Source: Ligustrum vulgare
Taxonomy: Eukaryota; Streptophyta; Magnoliopsida; Lamiales; Oleaceae
Length of the DNA: 64,000 nucleotides
Assembly: GCA_963555705.1 (NCBI GenBank)
Contig: OY743171.1
Coordinates: 26,654,852 to 26,718,851 of the forward strand
Direction of reading: 5' to 3'
Part shown: one piece after another, positions 2,795 through 13,562 of the stretch
Layout: each line of letters starts with the position of its first letter
Position numbering within the stretch: the first letter of the stretch is position 1
The notes under the pieces: model-generated
What the model saw: only the letters and a program-made list of their open reading frames with translations
Told to the model about the DNA's origin: nothing
The model's database searches: none
Translations under genes and position numbers: made by a program

Positions 2795-3393
2795 ATGGAA
2801 GCCAGAATTGGAGATGAAACTCAGCTTTATTACGGTCTGCCTTCCACGGATTTGAGGACAGTGGGGAAGAGAAGTCTGGAATGGGATCCCAGTGATTGGA
2901 AATGGGATGGGCATCTATTCGTTGCTTCTCGAGTCAATCCCAATCCTTCTAATCACCAGGGCAGACAATTTTTTCCACTTGAAAGTGGAATTACTGCAAC
3001 TAGGGATTCTTCGAACAGCTCTTCCTCTTGCTCCGAGGAATCAAATCAAGGGGCTGAGAAAGAAAAGAGGGAATTGGAGAGGAAAAGGAAACTTGTCTTA
3101 GTTGAAGATGATAATTTGGCAGATGAGGGCAGCAATCTTATGCTAGAGCTCGGGGGTCAAGGCTATCCAATGATGGAGAGGAACACGGGGAATGGGGATG
3201 GAACATCCGGGAAGAAGACTAAATTTTCTGGAGCCACCACAAATCGTGCAGTTTGCCACGTTGAGGACTGCGGGGCTGATCTGAGTAAGGCTAAAGATTA
3301 TCACAGACGGCACAAGGTTTGTGAGATGCATTCAAAGGCTAGTAGGGCACTTGTTGGGAATCAAATGCAACGATTCTGCCAACAGTGTAGCAG
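2795..3393 (+). CDS. SPL1: SPL exon 1: N-terminus and first SBP zinc finger
   Basis: It starts at the ATG giving [10 protein letters not shown], the typical start of the large SPL proteins, and includes the conserved [10 protein letters not shown] block. From residue 154 ([10 protein letters not shown]) it encodes the first zinc-binding structure and the start of the second, ending at CQQCSR. The donor is AG|GTAGAT. The intron position after CQQCSR is the conserved one within the SBP domain. Confidence 0.92.
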
Positions 3394-6300
3394 GTAGATC
3401 CTAACCCTTCACTTGCTTATCTGTATGGTTATATTTACCAAGTCACCTAGCATTATCTTGTGAAGTCTTTCAGGTTATTAACAGATCCTGATAATTATGT
3501 TGAGTATCTCTTTGATCAGATTTGATTTTTACTAAATCATCGGTTTTTCATTCTGCGTTATCAGAGTCCAACACTGGTGCCTTTTTGACTTAGGGTAATG
3601 CATTAATATTCTTTGAAGTAATGGAGTTATACGGTCACTAGTTCCACATGATTTTAATTTGAGCATAGTCATAATGTCTGTCTAAACTTACAAGTGATTT
3701 CTGTTCTTAGACACCCATATTTTACACATTTTTGCAGGTTTCATGCACTTCAAGAGTTTGACGAAGGAAAACGCAGTTGCCGTCGACGTTTAGCTGGTCA
3801 CAATAAAAGGAGGAGGAAATCTCAACCTGAAAATGTTAACGAAAATAAACATGGCAAAAAGCACGATTGTTGGCATTAATGTGACGGAACAAAGGATTGA
3901 AGACATAGTTGAGAAGGTGGGCTGTGAAAAAGGTAATTGGCCGCTGAATTACCTGGGATTACCCCTTGGTGGAAATCCTAATACTTTTCCTTTTTGGAAC
4001 CCAGTGGTTGAGAAAATTGCAAGAAGATTGGAAGGGTGGCACAAAGGCTGTCTATCAAGAGGAGGCCGACTTGTGCTCTTGCAATCGGTTTTGGGGAGTA
4101 TTCCAACATATTTCATGTCAATTTTTAGAATGCCTTGGAAGGTGGTTAAGTTGATTGAGAAGATGATGAGGGATTTCTTCTGGGAAGGAAGAGGGGAGGG
4201 ATTTAGTGATCATCTAGTCAAATGGGAAGTTGTCACAAAATCCAAGGAAAAAGGAGGTCTAGGGATTGGGAATCTTCATTTGAGAAATTTGGCGCTTCTT
4301 GGCAAATGGCTTTGGCGGTTCCCTTTTGAATCTAACTCACTTTGGCACTCTATTATCATTAGTCGGTATGGTCTCCACTCAAATGGACGGGATGCATGCA
4401 TGGAAATTAATTCCACTTATCGGGCACCATGGAAATCCATTACAAAAGTTTGGAATGCTTTTCAGGTAAACACCAGATTTGTGGTAGGGAAAGGGGATAC
4501 AATTCGGTTCTGGCTTGATAAATGGATGGGTGACCAAACTCTTCAAACATTATTCCCTCGCCTCTTTCGGTTATCTAACAATAAACACTCCGCTATCAAC
4601 GGCATTATATCCGTAACACCAAATTCTACGCCCACTTGGAACCTTGGTTTTCTTAGAAATTTTAATGATAGAGATATAGAAGAATTTACCTCCCTTTCCA
4701 TTTTGCTTGAAAAAATCACTATTGATCCACTTTCATTGGATAAAAGAATTTGGACTGGTCACCCATCGGGCTCTTTTTCATGCAAATCCTTCTTCGATCT
4801 TCTTTGTCAATCCCCTACTGATTCTAACTTCCCCCAATTTAAATTTATTTGGAAAGGTATGATTCCTACAAAAGTCAAAGTTTTTGCTTGGTTGGTGTCT
4901 TTGGGGAAGGTCAATACTTGGGATTTATTACAACTTAAGAGACCTGGTTGGTTTATTTCCCCATCATTTTGCATCATGTGTAAAAAGGCCAATGAAACCA
5001 TTGATCACTTATTGATCCATTGTGAATTAGCAAAACAAATTTGGGATAGACTGCTGGATTTGTTTGGAGTATGGAGTGTTATGCCTAGACGTTGGGCGGA
5101 TTTGATTATTATCAAATGGGATTTTGGGGATAACAAGGAAAGAAAGAAGGAGATTTGGAAAATGTTTGTTATGGCAGCAGCATGGATGATATGGACAGAG
5201 AGGAATAAAAGGATTTTTGACAATGCAGAAAGAACGATAGAAGATATTTGGGAAAACATGATATTTCTCACGGGTTTATGGGCTCGAGCAGTCAATATAT
5301 TTACTGGTTTAGATGATTTTCTTTTTCGTTTACATCCCAAGTGCTCTTTGAATTGTAGTTATGGGTAATCCGTAGACTAGTATATAGTCCTGTTGCCTTA
5401 CCATAGCTTCAATCATTTTTGTGTTGGACTACTCGTTCACAACTTCATTTGTAATTTTTGGATTGTTCAATGAAATTTGAGTTTCTTATCAAAAAAAAAA
5501 AAAAAATGTTAACGATAACAATCCATTGAATCATAACCATGCGAGTGGATATCTATTGATGACCTTACTGAAGATACTCTCCAACATGCATTGTAAGTAA
5601 ATGGTGGACATCGTGTCTTATACGAACTGTTTCACATAACTTATTGGTCATCATTTTTCCTTCTAAGCTTATGACAACTTCAATTAATTTGTTCTGGGTT
5701 CCCTGAGTCGCAGCCAATAGATCAAACCATAAAGATGATCAGGATATGTTGTCTCATCTTCTACACAGCCTTGCTAGCCAGAGGTCTTTGCATGGGGAAA
5801 CAAGCATATCTGGATATCCAAAGGAATCTCAAAACTTGCCGAACTATCTCCCTTATTTAGGAAGTTCAGAATTCTTGCATTCCTTGCTCTCAAACAGTTC
5901 TCAAGGCCAAGGACCTGGAGAACATCTTAGTACAATTCCTGCTGATGAAATGCTGACTAAGGATGGAAATCTACAAACCATAAATTCTCAAAGACCAGGC
6001 GTTATGTTCCCCGACCATGGTATTTCTCCAATTGATGCAGAAGGCAAGGACTGTTCTGCTGGGAGAAGCAAACTGAATAATTTTGATTTGAATGACGTTT
6101 ATGTTGATTCTGATGATGGCATGGATGATGTCAAAAGATCTCCCGTCCCTGTGGATCTGAGGACCAGTTCTATTGAGTTCCCTTCATGGGTACAGCAAGA
6201 ATCACATCAGTCAAGTCCTCCTCAGACAAGTGGAAATTCAGATTCAGGATCTGCCCAATATCCTTCCAGTTCCAGTGTGGATGCGCAGGTATATTTTAAT

Positions 6301-9300
6301 ATGCTATTTAACTTATTGGGTATGTTCTATGTTATTTGCGGTCTTTCTTTTACTAATATTGTACCATATAAATCTGAAGCAAGGAATGACCTATGAGCAT
6401 CATAGTATAGAGCTGAAAACCCGTTGTCACAAGGAAGTTTGATTCAGATTTTCTATAATTAGGTGATCACGGGTCATTAGGGGGCCACACTTTGTTAGGT
6501 GACTCCTAAAATTTTGTGGTTATACAAAGCTTTTTCACTCATATTTTTCATACTGAACTGTCTTTAACTTCCTTTCCAGAAACATTTTATTGCAATTCCT
6601 ATTAGATGTTCCAATAGTCAGAATGAATCAATACATCAGCGATTAAAAATCATTCAGATCAATACAAGTCATCTACTTTAAATATAATGAGCCTATCCAC
6701 TATGTGTTCACTTATTTATTTGATTTCTCACTCATAGGCTTCTAGAGGTTTTCTGAACTTGGATTCTTTGCGCCTCTAATTTGATGTCTCGTCCTTTTGT
6801 TTGAGTGTACAAAATCACAACACTAATTCTTACCATAAGTTATCCTAAAATTTCAGACGAACATGCCTTAGTGGGGCAAGTCTTTACCTACATCCAACAA
6901 GAAGTTACGTCCCAATAAATTGGGGGCCAGTCTATGTCTATTGAAAGGTCCAACAAGATCAAATCTGATGTGATCCCGGGAAGGAATTAGGAAGAACATG
7001 CAGAAAACGCATGGAAAGTTTCGAATTCAGGTTGGAAGGACGGTAAAATGGAGACCTGAGCCTCGCGACTCAAGAACCCAAGGTATATTAAACTTTAGAC
7101 CCGTTAAGATGCGGAGACAAGAACCAACATGAGTTGAATACCACAAAGGTTGCCCACGCCTTTGATAAGTTTGAGGATGTTCAACAAGAACAAGATTTGA
7201 GAGAACACTCAGCACAATTTTTATTAATCAAAAGTCTAATTATTACAATGAAGAAATAGCATATAAATAAGTAAAAAAATGACATAACAACTAGGGTAGC
7301 CACTATAGAGGTACAAAATCCTTAGAAAATAATTAAAAACGGAATTTAATCTAAAAATACACTAAAAATGCGCAAAAACCCTAATTCCCGTCTGCATAAT
7401 TGACTTACTGTTTTGAAGCTCAAACTGATGGAATTTGACCATAAAATCGTGGGCTCAAGGGCTTTAGCCCATGAGTTTTGCTCAGTGGCCCGTTTTTACT
7501 CGAAAAACACATTATGCATCCAGTTCTGACATGGTTGATTGGTTTGACTTGAAAATTTAACTTTTTGTCAAGCCAACTATAATTCGTATCATTCCCTCCT
7601 TCAAGATGATTCGTCCCGAATCATAGCTTTGTTCATGATGTACAACTGCCCCACCTGGATCAAATGGGAAATTCTGACCTTCATGACATGAATTCAATAA
7701 ATTGTACCCCCTCACTTGGTAGACAAAGGTATTGAAGCATAAACTTGATTGGCCAAGGCGAATGTGGCTCAAGCTTCCAAGTGTAATCAACCAGCAAGAA
7801 AGAGTCAAATAAAATGGGAAGGGAAATATTAGTTTCTCCTTGTACAAGGTATGGATCCTTATACTCGTGATACAACACTTCCACTTCTTTTTGCACCACG
7901 AGGCCCTTCTCTTCACCTCCAACAATCATTTCACTTTCTGGCTCATTCTCTTCTATTTCTTCTCTCAAACTTAACCACTTCTTCTAAGTTCTAACTCCAC
8001 ATTCTCACGCTCAACCACCTCTTTTAAATTTTTGGACTCAACCACCTCTCCTAATTTTTCATGCCCAATCTCCATTTCCACATTACCATTCTTTTGCTCA
8101 TGTACCTCATCGACAATCTTATCATCCTGTTGAGGCACATCCTCATCACTACTCAGTTTTTTATTTTCTACCTCGAAATTCGAAGTTTGTTCAACTATTT
8201 CAATTTTCAACTCCCCCTCCTCCTCCTCAACATTCTCATTGCGAGGTTTTTCTTGCAATTTAACTACCTTTTCACCCTTCCGTGCAATAATATTTTGTTT
8301 TAGACGTTTTAATAGCCTCCTCAAACATAACTTTGGGTCACTCTCCTCCGTCACCTTTTTTGTATCTTCAAGTGCTTGTTCTAATGTTAAATCACCTAGT
8401 ACAACTGATCTCCCATCCTTAAAAAATCTGTATATGTGCATACTCTCATCATAATCTGCCCTCCTCTCACGTCTACATGGTTTTCCTAACAATATATGAC
8501 AAGACTCTAGAGGCTAGTCGTCACACCATACTTCATCAATATATTTCCCACGAGTGATAGTCACTAAAACTTGTTTAGTCACATTGAACTTCCCACACTC
8601 CTTTATTCATGTCATTCTTTAAGGTCTAGAATGAGGTACTAGAGTTAATCTCAATTTCTCAACCAGTGTGATATTAACCAAATTAGAGAAATACTCCCCA
8701 TCAATAGCTAAACTACAGACCTTATCACCCACAAAACATCTAGTTTTGAAAACAGAACTCGAACCATAATTCATCTCTTTCGTGGCGATTCAAAAATATC
8801 TCAAGAATAGACATCAAATGGAAGAAGAATTTGATATGAGTAATAAGATCTTTAAGGGAACTCAATAAAGTGATTCTTGAATTTTTGATTTTTTTTTTCT
8901 TTTTTGATGAATTTTCGGAATAAAAAAAATGATTTTTTTTTTTTTTTTTAAAAATCTGAAAAATTCACTACGAATATGGGAAAACAAATGAGACTTAATT
9001 TGGACGAAAAATAGACGTAAAAACAATTTTGAAATTTTCTGGATCAAATACTCTAAGAAACTTAAGAAAAATAAAACACTCAACTACAAGATATGGATAA
9101 TCCATATGGAAGAATCGATAATAAACATAAGAATTAAATTGGGATAGAATAAACGAAAAAAATCTGAATTCAGAGTCTAGCTCGGATACCAGATGATGTG
9201 ATCCCAGGAGGGAATCATGAAGAACATGCGGAAAACGCCGAGAAAGTTTCAAATTCAGGTAGGAATGGACGGTAATATGGAGACTCGAGTCTCGCGACTC

Positions 9301-10732
9301 AAGAACCCAAGGTTTATTATTAAACCTTAGACCTGTTAAGATGTGGAGACAAGAACCAACATGGGTTGAACGCCACAAAGGTTGCCCACGCCTTTGATAC
9401 GTTCGAGTTTGGTGAACGCTACAAAAATTCGAATAATCTTTGATGAGTTTGAGGATGTTCAATAAGAACAAGATTTGAGAGAAAACATTCAACACAATTT
9501 TTATTAATCAAAAGTCTAATTATTACAATGAAGAAATAGCATATAAATAAGTAAAAAATGACTTAACAACTAGGGTAGTTGCTATAGAGGCACAAAACCC
9601 TAACAAAATAATTAAAAATGGAATTTAACCTAAAAATGCACTAAAAATTCGCGAAAACCCTAATTCCTGTCTGAATAATTGACTTACTGTTTTGAAGCCC
9701 AAAATGATGGAATTTGTCCATAAAGTCATGGGCTCAAGGGCTTTAGCCCATGAGTTTTGCTCATTGGCCCGTTTTTACTCGAAAAACACATTATGCATCC
9801 AGTTCTGACATGGTTGATTGGTTTGACTTGAATATTTAACTTTTCGTCAAGCCCGCTATGATTCTTTTTTAATCTGTTCAAGTATTCTCATACATTAAGA
9901 TGCTATTAATGTATTCTCATACATTAATAGGATAGAACTAAAAAAATAAATGAATAAATAAATAAAAATCCATTTTCTTCGGAATACGCAAGCTGCCCAA
10001 ACCGCTCTCCTTTTCATTTAATCACTGATGTCTTCCTTTGATGAGAATCAATACGATCTTTATAAGGCTCCTCCGAATGAAATCCAATGGGATCCAGAGA
10101 GATTCCGTCTTCATCCATAGGATGCCAAGTACCGGGATAGATCGAAAGTTCAATTCTATCTGAACTACTCATTTTCAAATGAAATCCTTGTTCACAAATA
10201 TTTGTTTTTGAATTAAAAAATTTCTTATAATTTAATCCATAACAATTTTTGCATTGAAATGTAAGATCCTAATTTTTGTTACAGCCCTATTATGGGAATT
10301 TTGTCCTTTAACAACCTAACAATCAATAGAAAAGCATAGCTGATCTAACGAGCGTTTCATATAAATTGCCTTAACTGGATTGGTTTTTCCATCACATGAA
10401 ATACCAGTAGCAGTAAACAATTTCTTTTGACCCTCTATAATCCTTTGCATTCGAGTTTTCCTTCATTAATAATTGAATGTAAATTACCCAAAATTTTCCA
10501 ACTTGCATGTACCAGAAGATTTAAAAACCTTCCTCTGCATTTTTTTGTTGATGATTTGGCCAAGTTATTTTTAATTTTTCTATGATTTGAAATTTAAAAC
10601 TACCTACTAACTTCTTTTAAGCCTTAGTTAGTATCAACTGAACTATTACATGTGATCTAGATCTATTTTTCTTGTTTTGATTCTTAAGTAATGTGAAGAA
10701 AAAAATTATCGTAGAAATTATTTTTATTTATT

Positions 10733-10768
<36 letters not shown>

Positions 10769-13562
10769 GGTAGAGATGCCACTATAATAATTCTTTGATT
10801 GTTAATTTCCTGTCATTTTTGTGTCATTACAGAGCCGAACAGATCGCATTGTTTTCAAACTCTTTGGAAAGGAACCCAGTGATTTTCCCATCATTTTACG
10901 AGCACAGGTATTTTTGTTGGATATTCGGCTTTGCCATCTCTCTTTTCTTAGGAAGTTTAACAAAGTGAAAATTTGTATTGCCAGATATTTGATTGGTTAT
11001 CCCACAGTCCTACGGACATAGAGAGCTATATAAGGCCTGGTTGTATCATTTTAACGATATATCTTCGTCTATCTGAGGCTGCATGGGAGGAGGTATGCTT
11101 GTTTTTCAAGATAACATGAATATGAAATTGTTGTTCTTTATTCTTGGACAAACCTCGTTAATTGTGCTTTAAAAGGTACCTCATCAATTTGTCTAACTCC
11201 AATTGCTTTGTGCAGCTTTGTTGTGATTTCGGCTCCAATTTGAGTAGACTTCTAGATTTCTGTCACGATGTCACTTTCTGGAGTACGGGATGGATTTATG
11301 TCAGGGTGCAGAATCAAATAGCATTTATATATAATGGTAGTTATTATTATGATTCTAGAACGTTTTCAGTTGCTACCTTGCAACTATACTTCTTTGTGGA
11401 AGATTAATCACTTTGATGTTCCTATTCTTCAGGTCAGGTTGTTGTGGATACGTCTTTACCTTTCGAGAGTAGTAATTATAGTACAATTCTGAGTGTTAAA
11501 CCTATCGCTATTATATCGTCAGAGAGAGCTCAATTTGTTGTTAAAGGCCTTAATTTTTCGCGACCGTCCACGAGGTATGCATCATGATTTGCTGTATGGT
11601 TTTATTTTCTTCTTGTTTATTTTATGAATGCAAATGTTAGATAGATTCTGTTCTTCCTTCCCTCTAGAGATTCTGAAAATCTTGGTCATAATCACAGACA
11701 CGTGATCACAATTTAAAAATTTGTCGCCAGGATACTCTGCTCTCTAGAAGGGAATTATCTGGAAGCTAACAGTGAGTTAGTTGAACATGAAGGTGGCTTA
11801 GAAGGGCATGATGTTCAATATGTGAACTTTGGATGTTCAATTCCTGCTGTTAATGGAAGAGGATTCATTGAGGTAATGCTTTATTCTGCTTATTGTACAT
11901 TATTCATTATTATATCATGTCAAATTTGGGAATGTTTGTGAATAAAAATTGTTATAAAGCATAATTGTTCGGGGAAGTTTTTCCTACTGTTGACCCCTAT
12001 TAAAGTTTTGTATGATATATCATGGTAGCTGTGACATAATCTGGGCAGTGGGCTAATTCTGATGAAGACGTGCATCTATGGCATGGTAGCTATGAGCACC
12101 AGTATGGCTGCATCCTGGAGTGTTATGCTAGAGTTTTGTACACCACGTATGCATGTTCCCTCTCTCTAACCTCCAAAATTTTCCTAAAATTTATCAAGGT
12201 TGAAGATCATTGTCTTGGAAGCAGCTTCTTTCCTTTCTTAGTTGCTGAGGACGATGTTTGCTCTGAGATGCGTATGCTTGAAAGAGAGATAGAATTGACC
12301 GAGACAGATGATTTCCAGTTAGAAACTAGGAAATTAGAAGCGCGAAACAAAATCATGGATTTCATACACGAAATGGGATGGCTTCTCCAGAGAAATAGTT
12401 TGAAGTCCAGATTGGGGCACTCAGATCCTTCAGACTGTTTTCCTTTTAAACGGTTCAAGTACCTTGTGGAGTTCTCTGTCGACCGTGATTGGTGCGCTGT
12501 TATAAAAAAACTTCTTGACGTTCTTTTCAATGGAACAGTGGGTGCTGGAGAGCAGCCTTTCTTGAAATTTGCTCTATATGAGATGGGTCTCTTACACCGA
12601 GCTGTGCGGAGAAATTCAAGATCTATGGTGGAGATGCTATTTAAATATGCCCCAGAAAGAGTAGCAGATGAACTAAGTTTGCAATACAAGTCCCTTGTTG
12701 AAAGTGACGGGAGTTTCTTGTTTAAACCTGATGTTGTGGGGCCTGCAGGTCTGACACCTCTTCACATAGCAGCTGGTAGGGATGGATCTGAGGATATATT
12801 GGATGCTTTGACTTGCGATCCAGGAAAGGTGATCATTTTCCCCTCCCAATTATAATGTTAAGATTGAAGAGTTTAAACTTAGTCATTTCATTTGCATGCG
12901 CTACGTGTTAGGAAGCCTCTTCTTTGCTTGCACAGCCTTTCAATAAGTTTTGCCAAATAATCGTTGCGACCTGGCCTGGTAAAATTGATTATCAATTGTA
13001 TGAATGAACTAAGACTAGCCTACTTTTGCCATTCTAGACTTGTAGTTAAATGAGTTTTATTTAGTTTATCACATGAATTTAGAATATGCATGTATGCCTG
13101 ACTTAGGTGGGAATTGAAGCATGGAAGAATGCCCGTGACAGCACAGGATTCACGCCTGAAGATTATGCTCGACTGAGAGGGCACTACTCTTACATACACC
13201 TTGTTCAAAGGAAAATTTCAAAGAAAGTATCTTCTGGACATGTGGTTGACATTTCTGAGACTTGTGCAGAAAGCAGTTTGAACCAGAAGAAAATTTTTGA
13301 GATTGGAATGTCCAAAAGTAATGTTCAGCGTTCCTGTGGCAATTGTGATCAGGAATTGGTTTACAGAAGGAGCAGCCGAAATTTGCTTTGTAAGCCTGCA
13401 ATGCTCTCAATGGTGGCCATAGCGGCTGTATGTGTTTGCGTAGCCCTTCTTTTCAAAAGCTCGCCCCAAGTTTTGTATGTGTTCCGTCCGTTCAGGTGGG
13501 AGATGTTGGAATATGGTTCAGCTGAGAGCAACATGAATGAAAATAAATTAATAAGCCCATAG
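2795..13562 (+). CDS. SPL1: SBP-box transcription factor, SPL1/SPL12 type, coding exon 2 split by a LINE
   Basis: Ten coding exons: 2795-3393, 3738-3842 plus 5516-5592 (split by the LINE), 5714-6288, 10833-10907, 10985-11092, 11216-11336, 11433-11574, 11731-11872, 12199-12828, 13107-13562. Without the LINE and one target copy they total 3,030 nt: 1,009 codons and a stop. The protein has the N-terminal motif MEARIG, an SBP zinc-finger DNA-binding domain (from residue 154), a basic nuclear localisation segment [13 protein letters not shown], long mid-region conserved blocks, ankyrin-like sequence ([10 protein letters not shown]) and a C-terminal hydrophobic segment, as in the large SPL proteins that bind GTAC-core promoters. 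As it stands, translation would stop at 3877-3879 after 246 residues. The choice between SPL1 and SPL12 orthology is not settled. A miR156 site is not expected in this clade and was not seen. Confidence 0.9.
3738..3842 (+). CDS. SPL1: SPL exon 2, 5' part: end of SBP domain
   Basis: The acceptor TTTGCAG|G joins in frame to exon 1. The segment encodes [20 protein letters not shown] and the basic tail HNKRRRK, which complete the SBP domain and its nuclear localisation signal. The SPL reading is broken at 3843 by the LINE; the frame then runs about a dozen codons into LINE sequence and stops at 3877-3879. Confidence 0.92.
3830..3842 (+). repeat. LINE target site duplication, 5' copy
   Basis: AAAATGTTAACGA is repeated exactly at 5503-5515 after the poly-A tail. 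The leading As are ambiguous with the tail. The next base differs (A here, T after the 3' copy), which fixes the right edge. Confidence 0.9.
3843..5368 (+). pseudogene. LINE ORF2 C-terminal fragment (RT tail and zf-RVT)
   Basis: About 508 codons are open to the stop at 5366-5368, in a different frame from SPL. Early blocks [18 protein letters not shown] and DFFWEG, then GGLGIGNL, are typical of the region just after the RT catalytic core in plant LINE ORF2. Near the C-terminus, [18 protein letters not shown] is the zf-RVT zinc-knuckle motif, followed by a Trp-rich tail. The endonuclease and RT catalytic residues are absent, so the fragment cannot mobilise itself. The frame is open 10 nt upstream into the target, but no functional start is implied. 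Confidence 0.9.
3843..5502 (+). mobile_element. 5'-truncated LINE (L1-type non-LTR retrotransposon) in SPL exon 2
   Basis: A 1.66-kb insertion sits between two 13-bp target copies and ends in a run of about 12-16 A. It holds only the 3' part of a plant LINE: the end of the reverse transcriptase region, a C-terminal zinc-knuckle domain and a short 3' UTR. Its 5' end is missing, as expected from incomplete target-primed reverse transcription. It lies in the same orientation as the SPL gene. Its ORF remnant is open throughout, which points to a young insertion. Confidence 0.93.
5503..5515 (+). repeat. LINE target site duplication, 3' copy
   Basis: Exact second copy of AAAATGTTAACGA, directly after the LINE poly-A tail. 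The SPL reading frame resumes from here. Confidence 0.9.
5516..5592 (+). CDS. SPL1: SPL exon 2, 3' part, beyond the LINE
   Basis: Joined directly to 3842, this continues the SPL frame through [19 protein letters not shown], a conserved block of large SPL proteins. It ends at a strong donor (T|GTAAGT) in phase 1 that fits exon 3. The coding length is undamaged. Confidence 0.9.
5714..6288 (+). CDS. SPL1: SPL exon 3
   Basis: The acceptor CGCAG at 5713 gives phase continuity from exon 2. The 575-nt exon encodes the [14 protein letters not shown] block and the variable, Ser-rich middle region with the conserved [12 protein letters not shown] motif. It ends at DAQ|GTATAT. Confidence 0.9.
6966..7591 (-). 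repeat. M1 LTR (3' LTR in element sense)
   Basis: 626 bp, beginning TGATG and ending CGTATCA, followed by the reverse complement of a polypurine tract (TTCCCTCCTTC). It aligns along its whole length with 9194-9869. Confidence 0.8.
7557..8774 (-). pseudogene. M1 protein remnant: retropepsin-like domain, acidic linker, conserved tail
   Basis: Reading leftwards from an ATG at 8774, the protein has a retropepsin-like start ([16 protein letters not shown]), then [20 protein letters not shown], a long Glu/Lys/Val-rich linker, then [20 protein letters not shown] and [18 protein letters not shown]. Stops and a frameshift interrupt it, for example between 8492 and 8774 and near 7970. M2 and M3 share this domain order. 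The segment around YKDPYL matches the PR-RT linker of element C1, and the tail resembles the end of a Ty3 pol protein just before the polypurine tract, so RT to integrase has been deleted. Confidence 0.7.
9180..9191 (-). other. M1 primer binding site
   Basis: On the minus strand it reads TGGTATCCGAGC, one mismatch from the TGGTATCAGAGC complement of the initiator Met tRNA 3' end. It lies two bases inside the right LTR. Confidence 0.75.
9194..9869 (-). repeat. M1 LTR (5' LTR in element sense)
   Basis: About 676 bp, homologous to 6966-7591, with an insertion of about 50 bp near 9397-9450. The outer end has lost the expected terminal ATCA and runs into T-rich DNA near 9865-9871. Confidence 0.75.
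10027..10262 (-). pseudogene. accD: Plastid accD fragment in the nucleus (NUPT)
   Basis: On the minus strand the segment reads [41 protein letters not shown] and [13 protein letters not shown]. This is the zinc-finger and following region of plastid-encoded acetyl-CoA carboxylase beta subunit. It is only about 235 bp, has lost residues relative to the plastid protein as I remember it, and sits inside a nuclear intron, so it is a non-functional transfer of plastid DNA. Confidence 0.85.
10723..10770 (+). repeat. TTTA/TTA microsatellite
   Basis: A run of TTTA repeats passes into about nine TTA/ATT repeats, 60 bp before the exon 4 acceptor. Confidence 0.9.
10833..10907 (+). CDS. SPL1: SPL exon 4
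   Basis: 75 nt, phase 0 at both ends, encoding [20 protein letters not shown], one of the most conserved blocks of large SPL proteins. The acceptor is TTACAG and the donor GTATTT. Confidence 0.9.
10985..11092 (+). CDS. SPL1: SPL exon 5
   Basis: 108 nt, phase 0, encoding [20 protein letters not shown] and the [11 protein letters not shown] end. The acceptor is GCCAG and the donor GTATGC. Confidence 0.9.
11216..11336 (+). CDS. SPL1: SPL exon 6
   Basis: 121 nt encoding [15 protein letters not shown] and [20 protein letters not shown], ending in phase 1. The Gly codon of GQVVVD is completed in exon 7. Confidence 0.9.
11433..11574 (+). CDS. SPL1: SPL exon 7
   Basis: 142 nt encoding [17 protein letters not shown], the [15 protein letters not shown] block and [10 protein letters not shown]. 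The donor is AG|GTATGC. Confidence 0.9.
11731..11872 (+). CDS. SPL1: SPL exon 8
   Basis: 142 nt after a GCCAG acceptor, encoding [10 protein letters not shown] and [17 protein letters not shown], ending in phase 0 before GTAATG. Confidence 0.9.
12199..12828 (+). CDS. SPL1: SPL exon 9: ankyrin-like region
   Basis: 630 nt, phase 0. It encodes [20 protein letters not shown], the [12 protein letters not shown] block, [20 protein letters not shown] and the ankyrin-type [20 protein letters not shown]. The acceptor (TATCAAG) has a weak pyrimidine tract but is placed by homology. The frame is open upstream, but that part is intronic. Confidence 0.88.
13107..13562 (+). CDS. SPL1: SPL exon 10: C-terminus with hydrophobic segment
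   Basis: It continues as [20 protein letters not shown], then [14 protein letters not shown], and later [20 protein letters not shown], a predicted membrane-type helix that is a signature of this SPL clade, followed by [17 protein letters not shown]. The TAG stop is at 13560-13562. The 3' UTR and polyadenylation site lie in about 13563-13690. Confidence 0.9.

Follow-up and report, generated by a model that had tools for sequence, protein, structure and literature searches.

A probably young, 5'-truncated L1-type LINE interrupts coding exon 2 in an SPL1/SPL12-type gene of Ligustrum vulgare

Introduction

In the window analysed here, a stretch of 64,000 nucleotides from Ligustrum vulgare, the reading frame of an SPL1/SPL12-type gene is cut by a retroelement directly behind its DNA-binding domain. 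The accessible part of one Arabidopsis study reports partial sterility of the spl1 spl12 double mutant and ties SPL1 and SPL12 to the thermotolerance of reproductive tissue (PMC6600651). A LINE in a gene for a development regulator is known from the Arabidopsis accession Kil-0, where, according to the available portion of the article, a 5.7 kb element with homology to At_LINE1-8 in intron 1 of FLOWERING LOCUS M (FLM) lowers the amount of full-length transcript through premature termination and through aberrant, decay-prone transcripts, with nonsense-mediated decay suspected (PMC4619661). The two cases share a plant LINE within such a regulator gene; as far as that portion goes, the FLM element is intronic and accompanied by transcript and accession data, whereas the element described here is exonic, strongly 5'-truncated and known from sequence alone. 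Our literature search found no LINE insertion in an exon of a SQUAMOSA promoter-binding gene, which is not a claim that none is in print; in the available text of a paper on the SPL genes of Fraxinus mandshurica (PMC9490987), the terms SPL1, SPL12 and word-initial transpos have zero occurrences, a match that names such as FmSPL1 would escape. The locus would provide a conserved plant regulator that has been knocked out or truncated naturally, in an event whose age can be bounded from above. If the allele segregates, it would allow SPL1 dosage to be tested in a woody plant and would point to recent LINE activity in the lineage.

Results

Ten exons of an SPL1/SPL12-type gene

The gene lies on the plus strand and comprises ten exons between 2795 and 13562. 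Joined without the LINE, these exons form 3,030 nt from the ATG at 2795 to the stop codon ending at 13562, i.e. 1,009 codons with no internal stop. Exon 1 (2795..3393) opens with the ATG, remains open up to its GT donor and encodes the first part of the SBP domain (PF03110). Exon 2 begins behind the acceptor TTGCAG and carries the frame on; its pre-insertion part (3738..3842) completes the SBP domain and includes the basic stretch NKRRRK, which we take to be nuclear-localisation-like, and its post-insertion part (5516..5592) is defined by the joined frame and by alignment with relatives. The joined open frame continues through exon 3 (5714..6288), exon 4 (10833..10907), exon 5 (10985..11092), exon 6 (11216..11336), exon 7 (11433..11574), exon 8 (11731..11872), exon 9 (12199..12828), in which domain profiles match ankyrin repeats, and exon 10 (13107..13562), which encodes a hydrophobic segment of 19 residues identified by hydropathy and ends in the stop codon. 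All nine introns are of the GT-AG type, an agreement that is partly by construction because the splice sites were picked by eye; independent support for the gene model comes from the single open frame and from the alignment of 99% of the joined reading to SPL1/12 proteins. This alignment and the SBP domain bear out the gene identity proposed in the initial annotation. Its statement that the remaining exons are intact is borne out as well: the ten exons show no further stop or frameshift, and no splice site is lost.

The SBP domain was matched with an E value of 4.7e-31 at residues 154-227, corresponding to profile positions 1-74 of 75, and solved SBP structures, including those of SPL12, SPL4 and SPL7, match the same domain. 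Exon 9 alone passed the cutoffs for Ank and Ank_3; the joined reading passed the Ank cutoff by 0.2 bits and missed Ank_4, and the domain search of the joined reading did not report PF26102, which is assigned to relatives. The hydropathy of the joined protein peaks at residue 956, marking the C-terminal hydrophobic segment. The joined reading thus has the layout of the SPL1/SPL12 clade (SBP domain, conserved C-terminal part, ankyrin repeats and C-terminal hydrophobic segment) and differs from it in that the LINE interrupts the reading frame behind residue 234. Judged from its sequence, the gene is by descent a disrupted member of this clade.

Among the best 120 of 1,377 proteins found, the closest relative of the joined reading was SPL1 of Olea europaea var. 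sylvestris (P0001, 87% identity), followed by a protein of Abeliophyllum distichum (86%) and two of Fraxinus pennsylvanica (83 and 84%); a second Oleaceae group stood at 70-72%. A tree of 24 rows (the window gene and 23 relatives, all taken from these 120 proteins and hence SPL1/12-like rows only) placed the window gene inside a group of five Oleaceae A-type rows (support 100/100) and, within it, joined the gene to Olea and Fraxinus A2 (100/99); Abeliophyllum and the second A-type copy of Fraxinus fell outside this pairing, and the branching order among the nearest rows was weakly supported (90/69, 81/68). On these relationships the source plant belongs to the Oleaceae, probably to tribe Oleeae or its vicinity. 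Fraxinus contributed two A-type and two B-type genes to the tree, and an ancestral genome duplication in Oleeae, described in the available part of a published study (PMC7767060), fits the two A-type copies in ash. Counted over the same 120 proteins, Fraxinus pennsylvanica has at least four SPL1/12 proteins, Olea europaea at least two (separate records for var. sylvestris and subsp. europaea), and Abeliophyllum and Forsythia at least one each. Because Fraxinus pennsylvanica has four such proteins, redundancy of SPL1/12 copies in Ligustrum vulgare is plausible by extension from relatives, although Olea, Abeliophyllum and Forsythia list fewer than Fraxinus.

The 3' end of an L1-type LINE within exon 2

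The insert spans 1,660 bp (3843..5502) and lies in sense orientation on the plus strand. It contains the open C-terminal end of a LINE ORF2, 507 codons or 1,521 nt (3845..5365, plus strand), followed by a stop codon at 5366-5368. This end matches zf-RVT (PF13966, E value 5.9e-19), and its protein relatives are 35-65% identical among the 120 listed of 893 found; the best of these was a Lonicera macranthoides protein (55% identity over 97%), and many others were grape (Vitis) proteins named ribonuclease H, TX1 or LINE-1 ORF2. The Lonicera and Vitis proteins share the zf-RVT C-terminal end of ORF2 with the insert, and many of the 120 relatives additionally have the reverse transcriptase domain PF00078 in front, whereas the insert holds only the last 507 codons and the sequence following them; a domain profile search found no match to a reverse transcriptase or endonuclease domain inside the 1,660 bp. 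Given the zf-RVT end and the many relatives with a reverse transcriptase in front, the insert is, on its domain and protein matches, the 3' end of an L1-type LINE, in agreement with both the identity and the 5' truncation claimed initially. A tblastn search of the window returned only the copy itself, with no second LINE copy, and the other six blastn rows obtained with the LINE query in the window were 14-22 bp long (E values 0.22-0.80).

Both ends of the LINE carry the direct repeat AAAATGTTAACGA, exact at 3830..3842 on the left and 5503..5515 on the right (plus strand), with no match beyond it on either side. A run of 16 A (5491..5506, plus strand) adjoins the right copy and has its last four A in common with it; since the first four A of that copy are indistinguishable from the tail, the duplication measures 9-13 bp, 13 as written. 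The probability that 13 bases agree exactly by chance at a position fixed in advance is about 4^-13. At the left junction the duplication starts directly after CTG and reads AAAATG, so that the bottom-strand nick falls at TTTT/CAGG. The L1 endonuclease prefers TTTT/AA, and the nick read as TTTT/CA agrees with this consensus at five of six positions. In the 30 alignment rows inspected at the site (the window gene and 29 relatives out of a 121-row alignment), the four A-type Oleaceae relatives showed no gap against the joined insertion site. The exact 13-bp duplication (9 bp when the shared A are counted as tail), the poly-A tail and the location of the LINE within exon 2, immediately downstream of the SBP domain, agree with the initial description. 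The LINE insertion is real, well formed and ordinary in kind.

A recent target-primed insertion of an L1-type LINE into exon 2, leaving a null or truncating allele, is in our judgement the highly probable history of the locus. The element would have integrated into the SPL1/12 exon in sense orientation by target-primed reverse transcription, starting from a bottom-strand nick at a site near the L1 endonuclease preference, and reverse transcription would have ended early, leaving the last 507 ORF2 codons, the 3' UTR and the tail.

Predicted consequences for the SPL1/12 protein

In the sequence as it stands, the full-length SPL1/12 frame is closed by a TAA at 3877..3879 (plus strand), inside the LINE. 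The predicted product has 246 residues, of which the gene itself encodes 234 and the LINE the last 12, and amounts to about a quarter of the 1,009 residues of the joined reading. It retains the SBP domain at residues 154-227 and lacks the C-terminal three quarters of the protein, including the ankyrin repeats and the hydrophobic segment at residue 956. A stop far before the exon end, with a long 3' UTR and downstream introns, favours nonsense-mediated decay, and such decay would be favoured here because the TAA is 1,715 nt away from the 3' end of exon 2. One AATGAA at 5469 is a possible variant of the poly-A signal. The mRNA may therefore end early within the LINE or be degraded by nonsense-mediated decay, the copy would become a null or near-null allele, and any protein made would be the 246-residue form limited to the SBP domain. 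Loss of function of this SPL1/12 copy is, from the predicted reading, likely; the gene may perhaps be dispensable or buffered by other SPL1/12 copies.

None of the nine GT dinucleotides listed from 3738 to 3895 was part of a GTAAG, GTATG or GTGAG donor when judged by eye. Removal of the LINE by splicing was rejected, as no good donor was seen by eye before the first stop; skipping of exon 2 was rejected because its 182 nt shift the frame, and a fused SPL-LINE reading frame because the two frames differ and a stop follows after 12 LINE codons. Searching with the 246-residue sequence, we saw no annotated truncated product of the species among the best 120 of 3,578 proteins, in which the highest identity was 70%.

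Age of the insertion

The initial annotation had called the insertion recent, and a neutral-decay bound supports this, given neutral drift and an assumed indel ratio. Taken by itself, the intact LINE frame limits divergence at 95% to at most 1.6% for an indel ratio of 0.10 and 1.2% for a ratio of 0.15; the corresponding limits from the 2,322 nt of intact downstream exons are 1.2% and 0.9%. Combining the LINE frame, the downstream exons and the GT/AG sites of eight introns yielded 95% limits on neutral divergence of 0.0064 and 0.0049. The chance of a stop per substitution was set to 0.046 in the LINE frame and 0.034 in the downstream exons; the indel ratios are assumptions, and the bound holds only if neither the LINE nor the downstream exons came under selection after the insertion. 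Under such neutral drift, the intact LINE frame, downstream exons and splice sites allow at most about 0.5-0.65% divergence, and the insertion looks young.

Other readings of the locus

The gene may already have been under relaxed constraint, with the LINE only finishing it, a scenario that we regard as possible but on the whole unlikely and that would loosen the tie between the LINE and the loss of function. It draws on private changes at conserved columns, which were those with an identity of 95% or more across 116 other proteins, with columns dropped that had gaps or disagreement among the other four sequences: such changes numbered 9/266 in the window gene, compared to 1/258 in Olea, 5/262 in Abeliophyllum, and 4/261 and 1/258 in the two Fraxinus sequences. 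The ratio of conserved to other private changes was 9:36 in the window gene vs 11:153 in the four relatives (Fisher p = 0.018), a comparison that involves small numbers and was selected after seeing the gene. When all differences at conserved columns were counted, private or shared, the window gene had 18/303 and the relatives 10, 13, 10 and 10, where two of the four relatives have gaps that perhaps stem from annotation. Against earlier relaxation, private changes overall are similar (45 in the window gene vs 35-52 in the relatives), and outside the insertion the joined gene has neither a stop nor a frameshift and has kept all its splice sites. The two sides of the insertion are similarly close to the relatives, with identities of 85.8-88.8% before it and 84.4-88.2% behind it.

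The remaining readings concern what the locus still makes and whether the LINE is truly there. It is improbable that the 246-residue protein is made and working, although the stop directly behind a complete SBP domain and basic stretch would suit a factor that lacks the C-terminal part and membrane segment, is constantly nuclear and drives or competes for SPL1 targets. The long 3' UTR and downstream introns should favour decay instead, and the window gene has a private change, Q155H, at a conserved position of the SBP domain. A precedent exists in the N-terminal part of Arabidopsis SPL7, whose SBP domain without the presumed dimerisation domain is, in the available part of the report, constitutively nuclear and constitutively activates targets (PMC4158090); the fragment resembles the 246-residue reading in keeping the SBP domain and losing the presumed dimerisation domain and membrane segment, but SPL7 is another gene and, as far as that part tells, its fragment was engineered, while the window case is a natural insertion in an SPL1/12 gene with a predicted product. 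Still less probable is the more specific proposal that, through the LINE, an SPL1-type factor once probably anchored in a membrane would have become a free and permanently nuclear protein of 246 residues with the SBP domain only, and that this natural gain-of-function or dominant allele would have been kept for changed heat tolerance or reproductive traits; such a dominant allele is unlikely unless a stable transcript exists. We likewise give little credence to a gene that still works, whether through splicing that removes the LINE or through a useful C-terminal protein translated from an in-frame start further downstream. In-frame ATG codons do occur behind the LINE at 5559 and 5586, with no later stop in exon 2, and the LINE in FLM of Kil-0 permits some full-length mRNA, as the accessible portion of that article states (PMC4619661); however, the FLM insert is intronic, the donor survey and the frame shift on skipping described above argue against removal of the window LINE from the transcript, and a C-terminal product would be without DNA binding. 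Placement of the LINE by an assembly error or chimera is the least credible of these readings: the region appears repeat-rich by eye, but a misjoin would hardly leave junctions that combine an exact duplication with a tail and an L1-like nick site. The recent target-primed insertion with loss of function thus remains the reading that we prefer.

Other elements in the window

Intron 3 is 4.5 kb long owing to an element flanked by repeats. This element, at about 6966-9866, has long direct repeats with a K2P distance of 0.105 over 639 aligned bases and is probably a non-autonomous LTR retrotransposon; because its repeats differ to this extent, it is far older than the LINE. By eye, its inner minus-strand frame resembles a frame at about 20.6-21.1 kb. 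Beyond the gene, much of the segment 15000-64000 resembles retrotransposon remains when judged by eye from the list of open frames: frames of gag/pol-like appearance lie at about 23.2-28.1, 29.7-31.5 and 54.7-59.7 kb, and a copia-like piece is located near 46 kb. Upstream of the gene, at 120-246, the exon-like open stretch RHFTASDEVVHDEFKLPGLAKLKGSWRSYLDASGGGHGDT is perhaps part of a neighbouring gene.
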